A stretch of 55,804 bases of DNA, from positions 1 through 55,804 of the forward strand of contig JADFYO010000019.1 in assembly GCA_015233015.1 (NCBI GenBank). Direction: 5' to 3'. Origin of the DNA: Nitrospirota bacterium. Its GTDB lineage: Bacteria > Nitrospirota > Thermodesulfovibrionia > Thermodesulfovibrionales > Magnetobacteriaceae. The translations under genes were made by a program, and so were the position numbers. Below are positions 9,884 through 38,155 of this stretch, in pieces (within the stretch, counting starts at the first letter, position 1; each line of letters begins with the position of its first letter). The notes under the pieces are model-generated. The model worked only from the letters and a program-made list of their open reading frames with translations, was not told where the DNA came from and ran no database searches.

Positions 9884-11773
9884 ATGCCTGTTGAGAATCT
9901 CGAATTCAAAACGGAGATAAACCAGCTCCTCAATCTAATGATACACTCCTTGTATTCTCACAAGGAGATATTCCTGAGAGAACTGCTGTCAAACGCCTCA
10001 GACGCTATCGATAAGGCCAGATACGAATCCCTCGTCAACAGTGAGGCACTTACGGACACCGGCGACTGGAAGATAAAAATCACGGCAGATAAAGACGCTG
10101 GCACGCTTACCATAAGCGACAACGGTATTGGAATGACTAAAGAGGAAGTCATCACAGAGCTTGGCACTATTGCCCACTCTGGAACGCTTGATTTCATGCG
10201 CGCTTTAAAAGAAAAAGGCGACATGAACCTCATCGGGCAATTCGGCGTCGGCTTTTATTCATCTTTTATGGTTGCCGATAAAGTCACAGTGATAACAAAA
10301 AGTGTAAAGGACGGGACTTCAGTCAAATGGGAGTCGGAGGCAAAGGGCACGTTTACCGTCGATGACGCCGAAAAACAAACGCGCGGTACCGATGTAGTTC
10401 TTCATATAAAGGACGACGATAAGAAATATCTCAATCACTGGGAAGTTAGCTCTATCGTCAAAAAATACTCCGATTACATCGAATACCCCATCGCAATGGA
10501 CGTCGAGCGTGAAGAGGACAGCGCCCTTGACAAGGGCAAGAAGGTAAAGCTGGTTAAAGAAGAGACGCTGAACTCCCAAAAGGCCATTTGGCTTAAAGAC
10601 AAATCGGAGATAACCGAAGAGCAGTATAACGAATTCTATAAGCACGTCTCCCACGATTTTGCTGACCCGCTGAGTGTTATCCATTTTAAGGCCGAGGGCA
10701 CGTCTGAGTTCACCGCACTGGTGTATATCCCGTCGCAGGTGCCGCTGGATATCTTTTATGAGCAGTTTAAGATAGGCCCGGTTCTCTATGTTAAGAGGGT
10801 TCAGATTATGGACCACTGCGAGGAGCTTGTGCCAAGATACCTGCGGTTTATTAAGGGTGTTGTCGATTCCTCGGATTTACCGTTAAACGTATCGAGGGAG
10901 ATGCTCCAAAACAACCCGCACGTCAGCGTAATTAACAAGAATCTCACTAAAAAAGTCCTCGACACACTGGCTGATTTGAAACAAAAGGACTTCGAAAAAT
11001 ATAAAAAATTCTACGCAGAACTTGGCAAGGTGCTCAAAGAGGGCGTACATTTTGATTTCCAAAGGCGCGAGGCGATAGCCGACTTGTTGCTCTTTCATTC
11101 CACTAAGACTGGCAAAGAGGCATTCACAACTCTGGATGAATATGTCAGGACAATGAGAGAAGGCCAGGAGGAGATTTTCTACATAACCGGTTCGTCATAT
11201 GAAGAGGCGTTACAATCACCCCATCTGGAGAAGTTTAACGACAAAGGATATGAAGTACTCTTCATGCTCGATGAAATAGACGACATCATATTCGGCTATT
11301 TCGAGTACAAGGGCAAGAAGATGAAATCCGTTATCAAGGGCAGCTTCGACCTGGATAAAAAAGACGAAACAAAGAAAGCGGAAGAGGGGCAAAGGTACGA
11401 AAAGCTGCTTGCCCAAATCAAAGACCGCCTGAAGGACGATATAAAAGAGGTACGCCTGTCGGGAAGGCTGAAGCAATCGCCCTGCTGTCTGGTCTCCGAT
11501 GAGGGCGCGATTGACCCCGCGATGGAGCGAATGCTGCGCTCGATGGGCAAAGAAGTCCCAAAAAACCTGCGGATACTGGAGATAAATCCCGGCCATCCAT
11601 TGATAGAGACACTGAGTACCGTCATAGAAAAAGATTCTCACAGCGCTGACGATAGCATTGATTTGCTCTATGAACAGGCCCTCGTACTTGACGGCAATAA
11701 ACCAAAAGACCCGGCAGTGTTCGCAAGGAAGATATCCGACCTGATGCTCGAGGCTCTGAGGCGGTCTGCATGA
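9884..11773 (+). CDS. htpG: Hsp90-family chaperone HtpG
   Basis: 629 residues, the normal bacterial length. The GHKL ATPase domain has EIFLRELLSNASDA (metal-binding Asn), ISDNGIGM, GTIAHSGT and GQFGVGFYS. The middle domain includes PLNVSREMLQ with the catalytic-loop Arg, and the C-terminal dimerisation domain ends near the stop. It is an ATP-dependent cytoplasmic chaperone. AAGGAGG precedes the ATG at optimal spacing, and a CIRCE operator lies upstream, so HrcA repression is expected. The stop codon overlaps the ATG of the secreted SBBP protein (ATGA), implying a shared transcript. Confidence 0.98.
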   Translation: MPVENLEFKTEINQLLNLMIHSLYSHKEIFLRELLSNASDAIDKARYESLVNSEALTDTGDWKIKITADKDAGTLTISDNGIGMTKEEVITELGTIAHSGTLDFMRALKEKGDMNLIGQFGVGFYSSFMVADKVTVITKSVKDGTSVKWESEAKGTFTVDDAEKQTRGTDVVLHIKDDDKKYLNHWEVSSIVKKYSDYIEYPIAMDVEREEDSALDKGKKVKLVKEETLNSQKAIWLKDKSEITEEQYNEFYKHVSHDFADPLSVIHFKAEGTSEFTALVYIPSQVPLDIFYEQFKIGPVLYVKRVQIMDHCEELVPRYLRFIKGVVDSSDLPLNVSREMLQNNPHVSVINKNLTKKVLDTLADLKQKDFEKYKKFYAELGKVLKEGVHFDFQRREAIADLLLFHSTKTGKEAFTTLDEYVRTMREGQEEIFYITGSSYEEALQSPHLEKFNDKGYEVLFMLDEIDDIIFGYFEYKGKKMKSVIKGSFDLDKKDETKKAEEGQRYEKLLAQIKDRLKDDIKEVRLSGRLKQSPCCLVSDEGAIDPAMERMLRSMGKEVPKNLRILEINPGHPLIETLSTVIEKDSHSADDSIDLLYEQALVLDGNKPKDPAVFARKISDLMLEALRRSA

Positions 11774-14673
11774 GTAAAAACATAATCTCTGCCATAGTTT
11801 TGATACTAACGGCCTTTTGTCTAAGCATGCCGGCATATGCGAATGTATCCGCTGAGGCGGCCACAGGGGAAAATGCCGCGATTGCGGCGTCATACGGGAA
11901 ACTGCCGATTGCCTTCGAGGCAAACGAAGGGCAGGTTGACCCGAAAGTCAAATATATTGCCAAAGGGCAGGGATATACCCTTTTTCTGACGCCTAAGGAG
12001 TTTGTGCTGAGCATGGCGGCTCACGACGGTGTAAAGGATAAGATAAAAACGGCCGCTATTCAGATAAAATTTGTCAGCACGGGCGCTAAAACGATAACCG
12101 GCGTTGACGAGCTACCGGGTTCATCCAATTACTTTATCGGAAACGACCCTGAAAAATGGCGCACCAATGTCCCTGCATATGAGAAAGTCAGATACGAAGA
12201 GATATATCATGGCATTGACCTTGTTGTTTACGGCAATCAACGGCAGATAGAATACGATTTTGTTGTCGGCCCTCACGCCGATTATAAGCAAATAGCCTTT
12301 CAGGTTAATGGGGCGAAAAGGTTAAGCGTCGATAAGGACGGCAGCCTGATAATAGCCTCAAAGGGCGGTAGTAAGATGCTCATGCACAAACCCCTTGTTT
12401 ATCAGGAAACAGACGGACTAAGGCAGGAAGTCAGGGGCAGGTATTCGGTTAGCAAAGGAAACCGGGTAAGTTTCAACGTGGCCGCATATGACAAGACGAA
12501 GGCATTGGTTATTGACCCCACGCTTGCCTATTCTACATACCTTGGCGGCAGCGGCAGTTATGGCGGCGATTACGGCTATCGCATAGCGGTTGATTCCTCT
12601 GGCAGCGCCTATGTCACAGGGGTGACTGGCTCAACAGATTTCCCAACCACATCCGGTGCCTTTCAGGCTTCCCTGAAAAGTGCCTATGGCAACGTTTTTA
12701 TAACAAAACTGAACTCATCCGGCACTGGCCTTGTTTACTCTGCGTACCTCGGCGGCAGCGGCAGCACCAGCTATGGTGATTATGGCTATGGCATAGCAGT
12801 TGATTCCTCCGGCAGTGCCTATGTCACAGGTGTGGCAACCTCATTAAATTTCCCAACAACATCTGGTGCCTTCCAGACTACTTTGAAAAATTCCCATGGC
12901 AATGCCTTTATAACAAAACTTAACTCATCCGGCACGGCGCTTCTGTTCTCTACGTACCTCGGCGGCACCGGTTATGGTGATTTTGGCTATGGCATAGCAG
13001 TTGATTCCTCCGGCAGTGCCTACGTGACAGGGGTGACTGGCTCAACAGATTTCCCAACGACATCCGGTGCCTTCCAGACCTCTTTGAAAACTTCCCACGG
13101 CAACGTTTTTATAACAAAACTTAACTCATCCGGTACTGCACTTCTGTTCTCTACGTATGTCGGCGGCAGCGGTTATGGTGATTCTGGCTATGGCATAGCG
13201 GTTGATTCCTCTGGCAGTGCCTATGTGACAGGGGTGACATCCTCGTCAGATTTTCCAACCACATCCGGCGCCTTTCAAGCTTCTTTGAAAAGTTCCTATG
13301 GCAATGCCTTTATAACAAAAATAAACTCATCCGGCACCGGCCTTGTATTCTCTACCTTCATCGGCGGCAGCGGCAGCAGCGGCGGTTATGGTGATTCTGG
13401 CCATGGCGTAGCAGTAGATTCCTCTGGCAACGCCTATGTGACAGGCTATTCATTATCAGCAAATTTTCCAACTACAACCGGCGCCTTTCAGACCACTTTG
13501 AAAAGTTCCTATGGCAATGCCTTTATAGCAAAACTAAACTCATCCGGCACTGCACTTCTGTTCTCTACGTACCTCGGCGGCGGCGGTAACAGCGGTAACG
13601 GTGATACCGGCTCCAGCATAGCAATAGATTCCTCTGGCAATGCCTATGTTACAGGTTATACATACTCGTCAGATTTTCCAACGACAACCGGCGCCTTTCA
13701 GACTTCTTTGAAAAGTTCCTATGGCAATGCCTTTATAACAAAACTAAACTCATCCGGTACTGCACTTATGTACTCTACGTACCTCGGCGGCAGCGGCGAT
13801 AACAGCGACAGCGGTGACACTGGCTCCAGCATAGCCGTAGATTCCTATGGCAATGCCTATGTGGCAGGCTTTACATACTCGTCAGATTTTCCGACGACGA
13901 CCGGTGCCTTTCAGACCTCTTTGAATAATTTGACAAGCAATGCCTTTATAACAAAGTTACAATTTTCATCCTCCACCTATTCACTGAGCGTGAGCACATC
14001 GGGAAGCGGCACAGTCATATCCTCTCCATCGGGAATAAGCTGCGGCTCAACCTGTTCAGCCTCATATACTGCCGGTACATCCGTAACGCTTACGGCAGGT
14101 GCAGCCTCCGGATATTCTCTTTCAAGTTGGTCGGGGTGCGATTCATCGAGCGGCACTACCTGTACCGTTACTATGTCGTCGAACAAGTCTGTATCGGCTG
14201 CATTTACATCGCTTGGATTATCAGACAGTGCAACAACCGCCTGTGCGGCAATTAATGCGATATACGGCGAATATGCCTCGTGGTTTGGAATAACATCCGG
14301 CAACATATACTCGCTGGCATCCGGCTCCTCTACATACTATGTCCAATGGTACACAAATGGCGCTGCACTTGTTGCAGGGACAGATGGAACTCTTTATACT
14401 TATTATAACGGTACCTGGTACAATTTAGGGATAAGCTGGCAGCGATTAGGTAAGGCAACCAGAGAGATTACCGCAATTTATAATCAATATGCGTCGTGGT
14501 TTGGGACAACATCCGGAAGCATATATATTGAGACGTCCGGCTCAACTACATACTATGTCCAATGGTTTACCAACGGCGCCGCCCTTGTAGCCGGAACAAA
14601 CGGCTATATGTACACGTACTATAACGGTCAGTGGTACGGGTTAGGGGTAAGCTGGACGACGCCCACTCCGTAA
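11770..14673 (+). CDS. secreted SBBP beta-propeller protein with tandem aromatic modules
   Basis: 967 residues. A signal peptide (cut after AYA, about residue 25) precedes a DUF7948-like domain (FEANEGQVDPKVKY onwards). Seven SBBP repeats follow (about 251-733), each with YSTYLGG, IAVDSSGSAYVTG and DFPTTSGAFQ; they are nearly identical at the DNA level and probably fold as a beta-propeller. An InlB-type B repeat (about 735-817) has two close Cys pairs and ends NKSVSAAFTS. Two copies of a 67-residue module form the C-terminus (824-890 and 896-962, linker QRLGK). A surface or extracellular binding role is inferred. The gene starts inside the htpG stop (ATGA), and its 3' end overlaps the convergent DUF2844 gene by 46 bp. 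Confidence 0.9.
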   Translation: MSKNIISAIVLILTAFCLSMPAYANVSAEAATGENAAIAASYGKLPIAFEANEGQVDPKVKYIAKGQGYTLFLTPKEFVLSMAAHDGVKDKIKTAAIQIKFVSTGAKTITGVDELPGSSNYFIGNDPEKWRTNVPAYEKVRYEEIYHGIDLVVYGNQRQIEYDFVVGPHADYKQIAFQVNGAKRLSVDKDGSLIIASKGGSKMLMHKPLVYQETDGLRQEVRGRYSVSKGNRVSFNVAAYDKTKALVIDPTLAYSTYLGGSGSYGGDYGYRIAVDSSGSAYVTGVTGSTDFPTTSGAFQASLKSAYGNVFITKLNSSGTGLVYSAYLGGSGSTSYGDYGYGIAVDSSGSAYVTGVATSLNFPTTSGAFQTTLKNSHGNAFITKLNSSGTALLFSTYLGGTGYGDFGYGIAVDSSGSAYVTGVTGSTDFPTTSGAFQTSLKTSHGNVFITKLNSSGTALLFSTYVGGSGYGDSGYGIAVDSSGSAYVTGVTSSSDFPTTSGAFQASLKSSYGNAFITKINSSGTGLVFSTFIGGSGSSGGYGDSGHGVAVDSSGNAYVTGYSLSANFPTTTGAFQTTLKSSYGNAFIAKLNSSGTALLFSTYLGGGGNSGNGDTGSSIAIDSSGNAYVTGYTYSSDFPTTTGAFQTSLKSSYGNAFITKLNSSGTALMYSTYLGGSGDNSDSGDTGSSIAVDSYGNAYVAGFTYSSDFPTTTGAFQTSLNNLTSNAFITKLQFSSSTYSLSVSTSGSGTVISSPSGISCGSTCSASYTAGTSVTLTAGAASGYSLSSWSGCDSSSGTTCTVTMSSNKSVSAAFTSLGLSDSATTACAAINAIYGEYASWFGITSGNIYSLASGSSTYYVQWYTNGAALVAGTDGTLYTYYNGTWYNLGISWQRLGKATREITAIYNQYASWFGTTSGSIYIETSGSTTYYVQWFTNGAALVAGTNGYMYTYYNGQWYGLGVSWTTPTP
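14239..14655 (+). repeat. tandem pair of 67-residue aromatic modules (copy A)
   Basis: Two modules, 14239-14439 and 14455-14655, separated by a 5-codon linker. The consensus runs IYxxYASWFG, SGxIY, TYYVQW, TNGAALVAGT, YTYYNGxWY, LGxSW. The same pair, with the same 67+5+67 geometry, lies on the opposite strand at 16405-16821. Confidence 0.9.
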
Positions 14674-15149
14674 GGGATTAAGTCCGGTACGTAGGCCCTG
14701 CCCTTGAGGGAGCGCATATGTCCCCATCTCTCGACGACGAGACCCGATGCCGTCTCTATCCGGCTATGCCTTTTGCCATGTTTGCGCGGGGTTTGCGTTA
14801 GAGCTATGATGTACTCATCATGATAGGAACCCAGAAGCTGCGTGAGGTCTGGATGTACCGGTCCGCTCCAAGCAATGCCGAATACGATGCCCTCAGGCGA
14901 AATAAATTCATGAATGGCGGTTTGTCCAGACTTGATTTCAGCAACCGTGTAACCATCGAACACCATCTGCCGCACTGGCTGGTTCGCCCCCGAAAGGGCC
15001 TTTCTATCGGCCTCAACCGAATCGACGGAGCCTCCAATTGTGGCGCTAACCCGCTGTGAGGGCAAAAAAACAGCCGCTATCACCACTAATACTATTAACA
15101 GCGCTAATCTTTTCATTACCGAACTGCCTCTAATGCCGTCTGCAGACAT
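14628..15149 (-). CDS. DUF2844 secreted protein
   Basis: 173 residues. The start at 15149 has AGGAGG five bases upstream; longer in-frame starts run back into the DUF3443 gene. A signal anchor (MKRLALLIVLVVIAAVF) precedes the DUF2844 domain: GGSVDSVEADRKAL, FDGYTVAEIKSG, EFISPEGIVFGIAWSGP, DLTQLLGSYHDEY. Function is unknown. The gene follows the DUF3443 gene by 31 bp, a pairing known from other proteobacterial-type genomes and suggestive of a joint envelope role. Its last 46 bp are antisense to the end of the SBBP gene, so the two stop regions interleave. Confidence 0.85.
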   Translation of the reverse strand: MSADGIRGSSVMKRLALLIVLVVIAAVFLPSQRVSATIGGSVDSVEADRKALSGANQPVRQMVFDGYTVAEIKSGQTAIHEFISPEGIVFGIAWSGPVHPDLTQLLGSYHDEYIIALTQTPRKHGKRHSRIETASGLVVERWGHMRSLKGRAYVPDLIPYGVGVVQLTPNPYH

Positions 15150-15180
15150 TTCAACCTCCTGAAATATACAAAATCGCGCT

Positions 15181-16941
15181 TCAATAGGCAACGTATGGAC
15201 CAGTGCCCAGACTGGATTTGCTGCCGTCCATTCCATAATAAACGCTCCGTCCAAAGAAGAAAGGCAGCCCCCAGTCAAATTCCCCCGAATCATCTCCGCC
15301 TAGTTCGACAAACACGTTGTTGTTTGAATTGAAAAGAGTGCTGGCATTACCTATCTGGAACGAGACGGTACCGCTTGGAGAGCCGTTAATTCCCTGATTG
15401 GTTGCCGTAAAGCTCTTTGTTGACGTAGGACAGTAAAAACTGGACGCATTTGAAGAAGAGCTGCAGTCCGGCAAGCTGCTTGTGGAAGGGGACTTAAAAA
15501 ATAAACCGTTTGAGCCGCTGTCTATAAAGCCGTTGGCGGCGTATGAAACACCGTTGAAGGTTGTGTTGAAGTCCGCATACTGGTCTGTTGGATAGACGGT
15601 TAGCGTGGATGGCGGCGTGTTATTGGACTGAGTGCCGATGCCAAGCACAAGGGAGCCGCTTACAGAGGCCACACCGCCCAGAGCAACGGACGGGAGCTGC
15701 ACTATATAGCCATTGTTGTCCTGCGACAAAAGCGCTATCGGGTTTTGAACCTGGCTTGAGAGGGTAACGGACGTGCCGCTGCACCTGTTCCCCGCGCATG
15801 AGTAATACAGCTGATTATTGGCGCTATTCACGCAGTCCGAACCACAGTCCTGAGGACTAACGTTGACGCCCAGTATCCCGTTGAAACCAGCCTCTTGCGG
15901 GCTTGTATCCACATATGGATTTTGGCTTAGAATACAGCCGGAAGACCCGCCGGGAATGCCGCTAAAGGTAGAATCAAAACTGGAATCGATAACATGTACC
16001 GGAACCGTAACGGCAGATTCGCCCCCAAGCTTGACGCTCGCCGTGGCAACATAGCCCCAATCGGCAGAACCGTCTCCATACCCATAGCACTCTGCAAGCG
16101 TTCCGGAACTTACGGTTACCGGCGTGAGAGTAACACTAAGAACCGATTTAAATATCCGCAGGCCAGTACTCATAGTATCTAACAGGATATCGTTTATTGT
16201 CTGGCAGGTTGAGGTGCCGGGGGTACAGACCGTAACGCTGACACACGGTTTGTTGGGATAGCCTTGCGAATTGGCCGCTGAACACAGAGAGCCGTTTACC
16301 GTAACCGAAAGCACGTTACCTCCCGACGAAGGTGATGGCGTTGGCGTGGGTGTGGGCGTAGCTGTCGGCGTTGGGGTAGGCGTTGGCGTGGGTGCCGGAT
16401 TCGTCCAGCTCAACCCTAAGGCGTACCACTGGCCATTATAATACGTATACATGTTGCCGTCTGTTCCGGCAACAAGGGCAGCGCCGTTGGTGTACCATTG
16501 GACATAGTATGTGGCTGAACCTGATGTTGCAATATAGATACTCCCCGATGTTGTCCCAAACCATGAGGCATATTGGCTATAGACTGTAGAAATCTCTGTA
16601 GCCGCCTCACCTAATGTCTGCCAATTCATCCCTAAATCGTACCACAGGCCATTATAATACATATACATATTGCCGTCTGTCCAGGCAACAAGGGCAGCGC
16701 CGTTGGTAAACCATTGGGCATAGTATGTGGCCCCGCCGGATGCTGCCGTCTGTATGCTTCCCGATGCCGAACCAAACCACGAGGCATATTGATTATAGAT
16801 TGTGGTGATTGCCTCAGCGGCGGTTGCCTGAGTTGCAGCTGAGGAAAATACATCGGTAGCAGCTAACGCGCTAAGGCAAGAGATTGCTAATACAAATACT
16901 ATGACTGTTACCAGCGATTTATTAAGTTTAATGTTACTCAT
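15181..16941 (-). CDS. secreted DUF3443 protein with N-terminal aromatic modules
   Basis: 586 residues. The signal peptide ends near residue 28. Two 67-residue modules (41-107 and 113-179, linker QTLGE) are followed by a Pro-Thr linker (about 182-207) and a DUF3443 domain (about 209-586). DUF3443 contains LLDTMSTGLRIF (Asp255) and a later FIDSGSNGLFF (Asp474). These resemble the paired hydrophobic-D-(S/T)-G elements of pepsin-fold aspartic proteases, except that the first reads DTM instead of DTG. Several cysteines suggest disulphides in an exported protein. It is the first gene of a unit with DUF2844. The modules match the C-terminus of the facing SBBP protein. Confidence 0.88.
   Translation of the reverse strand: MSNIKLNKSLVTVIVFVLAISCLSALAATDVFSSAATQATAAEAITTIYNQYASWFGSASGSIQTAASGGATYYAQWFTNGAALVAWTDGNMYMYYNGLWYDLGMNWQTLGEAATEISTVYSQYASWFGTTSGSIYIATSGSATYYVQWYTNGAALVAGTDGNMYTYYNGQWYALGLSWTNPAPTPTPTPTPTATPTPTPTPSPSSGGNVLSVTVNGSLCSAANSQGYPNKPCVSVTVCTPGTSTCQTINDILLDTMSTGLRIFKSVLSVTLTPVTVSSGTLAECYGYGDGSADWGYVATASVKLGGESAVTVPVHVIDSSFDSTFSGIPGGSSGCILSQNPYVDTSPQEAGFNGILGVNVSPQDCGSDCVNSANNQLYYSCAGNRCSGTSVTLSSQVQNPIALLSQDNNGYIVQLPSVALGGVASVSGSLVLGIGTQSNNTPPSTLTVYPTDQYADFNTTFNGVSYAANGFIDSGSNGLFFKSPSTSSLPDCSSSSNASSFYCPTSTKSFTATNQGINGSPSGTVSFQIGNASTLFNSNNNVFVELGGDDSGEFDWGLPFFFGRSVYYGMDGSKSSLGTGPYVAY
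16405..16821 (-). repeat. tandem pair of 67-residue aromatic modules (copy B)
   Basis: Modules at 16621-16821 and 16405-16605 on the minus strand, with a 5-codon linker. They are visibly similar in nucleotide sequence to copy A (for example the shared ACATACTATGTCCAATGGT stretch), and so form a long imperfect inverted repeat with 14239-14655. Confidence 0.9.
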
Positions 16942-36562: not shown

Positions 36563-38155
36563 TTATTTCCATGTGTACCCCATCATATTAGTCCAACCAG
36601 CGCCATTGACGGGGTAGTAATACATTTTCCCATCCGCTCCGGCTAAGAGACCTGTACCTGTCGAATAAAATTGGACATAGTATGTGTCGCCGCTGCTTGT
36701 GTCAGTAGCCATAATTATGTCTCCCAACGGCTCTCCAAAATATGAGGCGTATGCGTTATATATAAAGTAAGTCATCGCGGTTGCCTTAGCAAGGTCGTCG
36801 CTTGTCTTCCAACTTTCTGGAAAATAGAACCACCGCCCATTATAATAATAAGACATCGACCCGTCTGGAGTTGCCTCAACTACCGTTCCATTCGAATAAA
36901 ATTGCATATAATATGTGCCACTTGTGCCGCTAACCTCAAGCACGCTCGAGAAAACAGGCGACCCGGTTGTCCAGATCGAAGACCAATATTTATTATAAAT
37001 TGCGCTAATCCAGTCGCCGGCCAACTGATAGTCTGATACTGCCGTTGTAAATGCGACAGTTACAGACTTATTCGCATTCATTGCGACAGTGCATTGATTG
37101 CTATATTTAGAATCACACCCTGACCAGCTTGAAAAAGAAGAGCCTGAGTTTGCAGTTGCCGTCAGCGTTACAGATGTGCCTGAAGTATATGCCGCAGTGC
37201 CCGTGCTGCCGCTCCATGATATTGTCCCCGAACTCGCAGTTACAGTGCCTGAACCCGTGCCTGATGTGGTTACAGTCAGGTTATAGGTGCTGGAGACAGT
37301 TACAGGCGTGAATTTCGAGATTCGCTCGGCATCCCTATCGGAAACATAAACATTCCCGCTGCTATCTACTACTACAGCGACAGGTCCTGTCATCTGGCCG
37401 CTCCCGGAACCGGAGCCGCCAAATGTTGTAACAAAAGTCCCATCGCTTGCAAATTTCAAGACTCTTCCATTTCCATAATCGGCAACATAGACAGCCCCGA
37501 GGCTATCTACTGCCACGCCTATTGGATCTGAAAACTGGCCATTTCCGGTACCGGTGCTGCCAATATTTTTTACAAAAATTCCAGTGCTGGTAAACTTCTG
37601 AAGTGTTTGATTATTTACATCGACAACATAAACATTCCCACTTTTATCTACTGCCACACCGCTTGGATATTGAAACTTTCCGTTGCCAGTACCGGCGCTG
37701 CCCCATTTTGTAATGAAAGTCCCGCTGCTGTTAAATTTCGCAACTATAGAAAGCCCCATATCTGTAACATAGACATACCCGCTGCTATCTACCGCTATAG
37801 ATGTAGGGTACTGTAAAGAGCCTCCACCAGAACCTAATCCGGACCAACTAGCCTCAAAAGCCCCCCCTCCCGAAAATTTCTGGATCATGCCATTGGCTGT
37901 GTCGGCGATCTAAACATTCCCGCTGCTATCTACCGCTACGCCCATCGGATATTCAAACTGGCTGTTCCCGGTACCGGTGCTGCCCCATGATGAAACAAAG
38001 GAATAACTCTCCGCCACAGCCGTACTTGATGTAAAAAGGTTGAAAGGAATGAACATCAGAGCGTACAACACTATAGCATAGTACAGGATAACCTTCCCCC
38101 GCGGCTTGAACTGGCATAACGCAAATGATTTAAACAACTCAGAGATACTTTCCAT
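36563..38155 (-). pseudogene. NHL-repeat secreted protein interrupted by an amber codon
   Basis: A single 531-codon frame is broken by TAG at 37910-37912. The first 81 codons give a signal peptide and the start of the first NHL repeat (MGVAVDSSGNV). The frame resumes with IADTANGMIQKFS, exactly where sister repeats have VYV(A/T)D, so the stop replaces a Tyr codon by one base. Six NHL-like repeats, an InlB-type repeat (SGCDSKYSNQC, NANKSVTVAFT) and two divergent aromatic modules complete the protein. It is called a pseudogene unless the amber is read through or is a sequence error. An internal ATG at 37888 would yield 441 residues without a signal peptide. Confidence 0.8.

Follow-up and report, generated by a model that had tools for sequence, protein, structure and literature searches.

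Background

The LGFP repeat is the described domain to which the module reported here comes closest in structure. It consists of an N-terminal helix and an antiparallel sheet of three to four strands, is found in five C-terminal copies, and interacts with the peptidoglycan-arabinogalactan wall (PMC11299179). LGFP repeats are also present in actinobacterial phage lysins.

An earlier note on contig JADFYO010000019.1 of a Nitrospirota genome (GCA_015233015.1, 3.78 Mb) had pointed to two facing secreted proteins, each with two copies of an unnamed aromatic module, and had regarded this module as a portable binding or anchoring unit. Here, we follow up that observation in the window (the whole stretch of 55,804 nucleotides that was analysed), in the source genome and in other sequenced bacteria. 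Our best reading, drawn from a predicted structure and from analogy, is that the module would work like an LGFP domain, and we do not claim that it is one.

Results

The first of the two proteins is an SBBP beta-propeller protein (11770-14673, + strand) composed of a signal peptide, a DUF7948 domain, at least seven SBBP repeats, an InlB-B-like repeat and a module pair. The InlB-B-like repeat (Flg_new_2, a divergent InlB B-repeat; 13978-14211, +) is stalk-like and the usual predecessor of the pair, whose copies 1 ("first", 14233-14442, +) and 2 ("last", 14452-14658, +) were delimited by profile match and predicted structure. On the other strand, the DUF3443 protein (15181-16941, -) shows the order signal peptide, module pair (copy 1, 16618-16827, and copy 2, 16402-16608, both on the - strand and from profile matches), Pro/Thr linker (NPAPTPTP..., 16315-16401, -, located by sequence comparison) and DUF3443 domain (15184-16320, -; E 6e-124). 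Its partner gene, encoding a DUF2844 protein (14628-15116, -; Pfam E 1e-37), lies directly downstream of the DUF3443 gene, and its 3' end shares 46 bases with the end of the SBBP gene. In the within-genome search, a module query found the partner modules of the SBBP and DUF3443 proteins at E values of 3.5e-34 to 4e-27, so that their likeness is not due to chance, and the two pairs were 76.8% identical in DNA over 426 bases. The presence of two copies of one module in each facing protein is thus confirmed by both the profile matches and the within-genome E values. The window encodes a third carrier (36563-37888, -) with an NHL propeller, an InlB-B-like repeat and, at the C-terminus, two diverged modules (36806-37012 and 36569-36766, -); no signal peptide is evident in its frame, which may therefore be broken or wrongly called at the 5' end.

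The unit, originally described as one of 67 residues, has an actual repeat period of 72-73 residues. AlphaFold2 confidently predicted for each copy of the pair a helix followed by five antiparallel strands (pLDDT 95.6, pTM 0.87; pLDDT 90.4 for a single module). In this model the motifs QRLGK and QTLGE, formerly taken as linkers, are the start of the helix of the second module and follow immediately on the final strand of its predecessor, so that the modules abut without a linker. Over 55 diverse copies, the near-invariant residues were A3, Y36, Q38, A48, D51, G52, Y55 and W69.

Neither Pfam nor NCBIfam yielded a significant match for the module pair, in agreement with the initial view that the module stands outside the domain catalogues, and a Pfam scan of the 55 diverse copies gave only scattered matches, all below threshold. 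The weak Pfam matches (Tcp10_C, DUF4859, APT, CbiN and Arteri_nucleo) were rejected as single-member and under the cut-off. Antibody light chains, found in a PDB sequence search, were discarded as low-complexity chance matches, the best E value (0.0002) being a sum of fragments each with E >100.

The Foldseek search against the PDB found no significant structural match. Its top rows (Polo-box, TCP10/G-box and Sas-4) probably reflect a general likeness of open beta-meanders (E >=0.007, TM 0.16-0.41, VIA Z <=4.4). The best structural match of the single module was the LGFP repeat 6sx4 (VIA Z 6.6; 1.4 A over 50 residues), followed by a second LGFP structure, 6swz (VIA Z 6.0; 2.3 A over 60 residues), and then by an unrelated chain at 4.7, values to be read with the caution that a VIA Z of 6-7 lies within reach of unrelated folds and that its level alone proves no fold identity. 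One explanation, which concerns origin and is compatible with a role as anchor, is that the module truly belongs to the LGFP family, though as a highly diverged member, and was brought into Nitrospirota. The LGFP repeat leads the fold matches by 1.3-1.9 Z, and the order of elements (helix, then sheet) and the C-terminal tandem use are alike (PMC11299179). We nevertheless consider such an ancestry doubtful. The module has an extra fifth strand, 72 residues against 54, and usually two copies instead of five. The Leu-Gly-Phe-Pro motif is absent from it, the sole conserved counterpart over the 55 copies being a Gly (F18-G19). The LGFP model (PF08310) was unmatched by the pair and the 55 copies in the Pfam scans, and its search of the source genome gave no match above 22 bits and none at the module loci. 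Moreover, a profile-profile comparison of the module with LGFP repeats (hhalign) returned a non-significant probability of 0.4%, and because this comparison fails to support homology we do not call the module an LGFP member.

In the source genome, the module query found 49 matches at E <1e-8, distributed over 16 contigs and about 25 open frames, among which is the third carrier of the window (36563-37888, -). The genus is Candidatus Magnetominusculus (magnetotactic Nitrospirota), and all seven genomes sampled from it carried 19-57 copies by profile search. Among 12 further genomes from the family, four had one or two copies, and the same search found the module in no other genome of the order nor in the remainder of a sample of 396 genomes of the phylum. 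A scan of 84,980 species genomes with exact degenerate patterns, which may have overlooked remote relatives outside Nitrospirota, disclosed 55 loci. All of them belong to Nitrospirota, the records being those of Candidatus Magnetominusculus xianensis HCH-1, of Ca. Magnetominusculus sp. LBB02 and of Nitrospirae MAGs. No relative turned up among viral contigs, plasmids and phages, which leaves an origin from phages or plasmids unsupported. Confinement to this single locus had been named beforehand as a possible refutation; instead, at least 100 carriers are known in at least seven genomes. The module is an uncatalogued domain that has been amplified in one genus.

Our carrier set comprises 100 distinct proteins, with the stop seen in 99. 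The array lies at most five residues from the stop in 90 of these 99 carriers, typically ending in W-K/R/Q/E; four arrays are N-terminal, three of them in DUF3443 orthologues, and five are internal or end six to eight residues short of the stop. Use at either end of proteins, as initially proposed, does occur, although it is far from even. The statement that modules always come as a pair does not hold, as 79 of the 99 carriers have two copies, 10 have one, seven have three and three have four. A strong signal-peptide-like segment, called by a hydropathy heuristic and not by SignalP, was present in 81 of the 89 carriers with a complete N-terminus, and a possible canonical lipobox in only one. 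The heads found were SBBP/DUF7948, Vgb_lyase, RCC1, NHL, PQQ, BNR, Peptidase_S8 (subtilases), GH44, Lcl_C and DUF3443, plus, in another genus, a papain with a lectin-like domain; these tabulated partners are unrelated exported domains, as expected for a portable unit. An InlB-B-like repeat is the usual neighbour directly N-terminal to the pair, and 19 of the 26 source-genome ORFs with such repeats contain the module (hypergeometric P ~2e-40).

A near-fixed place at the C-terminus of heterogeneous, exported proteins, most of them with the W-K/R/Q/E ending, in bacteria with a GspD would also fit a secretion or sorting domain that some export machine (type II or other) recognises, as the type IX system does the CTD, and that has no lasting binding role. 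We judge this unlikely in view of the N-terminal pair in the DUF3443 proteins of three species, the internal arrays of a few carriers, the variation of copy number between one and four, and the existence in the same genome of exported proteins that have the same InlB-B-like repeats but lack the module. In addition, the NCBIfam models of sorting domains, including the type IX CTD, did not match the pair or two further modules.

Carrier genes can be grouped. On contig C65 of the source genome (locus L021, 9287-19493) four successive ones share a strand and a fifth is located 8 kb upstream of them, and in Ca. Magnetominusculus sp. LBB02 (L063, 3759-9564) there are three in a row, including those for a GH44 glycoside hydrolase and an Lcl_C protein. 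Small proteins formed by a signal peptide and a module pair alone were found in three species (L049, 3507-4169; L062, 3501-4181; L057, 4387-5001; all +), each divergent from the same module-bearing gene, which encodes a propeller. The clusters (C65, C94 and others), the keeping of these stand-alone pairs beside the propeller gene and the small duplicated unit at the C-terminus of enzymes (GH44 included) and propellers could be accounted for by a dockerin-like adaptor, with the pair building a surface complex by docking to other modules or onto a scaffold protein. This is quite unlikely, since the dockerin model (PF00404) gave no Pfam match with the pair and the 55 copies even at E up to 1, and the predicted fold differs from that of dockerin. 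The secretion signal and the dockerin-like adaptor are the chief rivals to retention of the carriers at the surface.

The strongest evidence on the function of the module, as judged from sequence comparison, is provided by natural swaps with other anchors or end modules. DUF3443 proteins of sister genera (L146 and L147) have a canonical lipobox (LVLVAGC), a Gly/Ser-rich linker and no module, and the linker in L146 carries NPAPTP at the same place as the Pro/Thr linker of the window protein. In contrast, the DUF3443 proteins of the genus (window, L149 and L150) present a signal peptide, a module pair, a P/T linker of the NP[AT]P type and the same DUF3443 domain. By these two arrangements, the module pair occupies the former place of the lipid anchor, a swap that is a single case in one protein family. 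The signal peptide of the window protein has a cysteine (AISC) that fits a loose lipobox pattern, and those of the two congeneric orthologues do not. As to DUF7948-SBBP proteins, the orthologues in sister genera (L164-L166) carry C-terminal FG-GAP/W_rich_C arrays and those of the genus mostly a module pair, and the FG-GAP array replaced may act as a head that binds a ligand instead of as an anchor. Both swaps lend support to the anchoring part of the original proposal; binding of a ligand is what we infer.

A general complementarity of the kind "module or lipobox" was rejected. Module-less Flg_new_2/SBBP proteins of the source genome are also devoid of a lipobox, which leaves DUF3443 as the one family on which the lipid swap stands; their C-termini show FG-GAP, IPTL-CTERM or none. 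A module-less SBBP paralogue on contig C59 (L161, 1515-2483, -) has a C-terminal IPTL-CTERM sorting signal at the curated cut-off, the only such match over the cut-off in the source genome. It represents a third swap of the pair for another end module. Another C-terminal array, made of FG-GAP with DILW..TG..IWLMNG blades and mostly ending in W-x-I-(x-x-)K at the stop, was observed on module-less exported proteins of sister genera (L164, L165 and L166; also W_rich_C) and of the source genome (contigs C72, C97 and C66; L155, L158 and L159). On its sequence, this FG-GAP/DILW array is a second C-terminal tag in the same bacterial family.

To get insight into the history of the pair, we examined a tree of 118 copies, built on few alignment columns and with weak single forks. 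First and last copies were largely apart, with 17 and 19 label changes versus about 39 when shuffled, and none of 500 shuffles was as low as observed. The pair has thus been inherited and moved as a unit, and the N-terminal one of the DUF3443 proteins consists, as usual, of a first and a last copy. The SBBP protein terminates in GVSWTTPTP (TTPTP at 14659-14673), a sequence similar to that with which the DUF3443 linker starts (SWTNPAPTP). This likeness suggests that the pair of the SBBP protein was copied from a DUF3443-type N-terminus, TTPTP being a possible trace of copying between the facing genes. A strong lineage-specific expansion, 90.6% DNA identity between two module pairs and the clustering of carriers on one contig might be taken as the mark of a selfish or neutral repeat, spread by recombination among paralogous exported genes and with little function. 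We regard this as very improbable: residues are nearly invariant over the 55 diverse copies, frames are intact, the pair is retained with distinct first and last positions, and the lipid anchor was precisely replaced.

Discussion

Altogether, we propose, with a probability of slightly under 0.6, that the module is a lineage-specific surface-retention unit of LGFP-like fold, and we suppose that the carriers are located at the surface and that the ligand is a glycan. Carriers, which have an ordinary signal peptide, would be exported from the cytoplasm by Sec, and their passage through the outer membrane would probably rely on the type II system, a plausible route given the presence of GspD. The pair, in most cases on a stalk of InlB-B-like repeats, would then bind through an exposed aromatic face a component of the envelope, most likely a surface polysaccharide, and would thereby keep the functional head (beta-propeller, subtilase, GH44, Lcl_C or DUF3443) outside the cell. 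Carriers would be retained, either on the surface of the cell or in the extracellular matrix, by a Tyr/Trp-rich fold in which the N-terminal helix packs on the five-strand antiparallel sheet. A bolder and more tentative hypothesis is that Candidatus Magnetominusculus replaced lipid and C-terminal anchors across its exported proteome by a genus-specific display system, with the pair read by one abundant surface ligand and the LGFP-like fold arisen or recruited independently of the actinobacterial cell-wall binders.

One module profile would annotate a large part of the surface proteome of these uncultured magnetotactic bacteria (about 25 exported proteins in one genome and at least 100 in the genus). 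If the anchor is true, a soluble and portable cell-surface tag would be available for a diderm, found via its natural swap with a lipid anchor, and the LGFP-like helix-sheet fold would extend well beyond its actinobacterial home.

Several known systems resemble the module in part. The type IX CTD (TIGR04183) and the IPTL/PEP-CTERM signals are, like the module, C-terminal tags shared by many unrelated exported proteins of a genome; however, the module folds as a helix-sheet repeat and has no transmembrane helix, it can also be N-terminal or internal, and it matches none of those models. FG-GAP/W_rich_C arrays take the same C-terminal place in the DUF7948-SBBP orthologues of sister genera, but they are a separate sequence family with Asp-rich, propeller-type blades and a DILW motif. 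Dockerins are also small duplicated units that end extracellular enzymes, whereas the module has no Ca-binding dockerin motif, no Pfam match and another fold. The LGFP repeats of C. glutamicum mycoloyltransferase A/PS1 (PF08310; 6swz and 6sx4) share with the module a helix plus antiparallel sheet and C-terminal tandem use on exported proteins, and both are aromatic-rich with a conserved Gly after the helix. LGFP repeats have 3-4 strands, about 54 residues and five copies, against five strands, about 72 residues and one to four copies (mostly two) of the module, and, whereas they are mainly actinobacterial, the module belongs to a diderm lineage of Nitrospirota.
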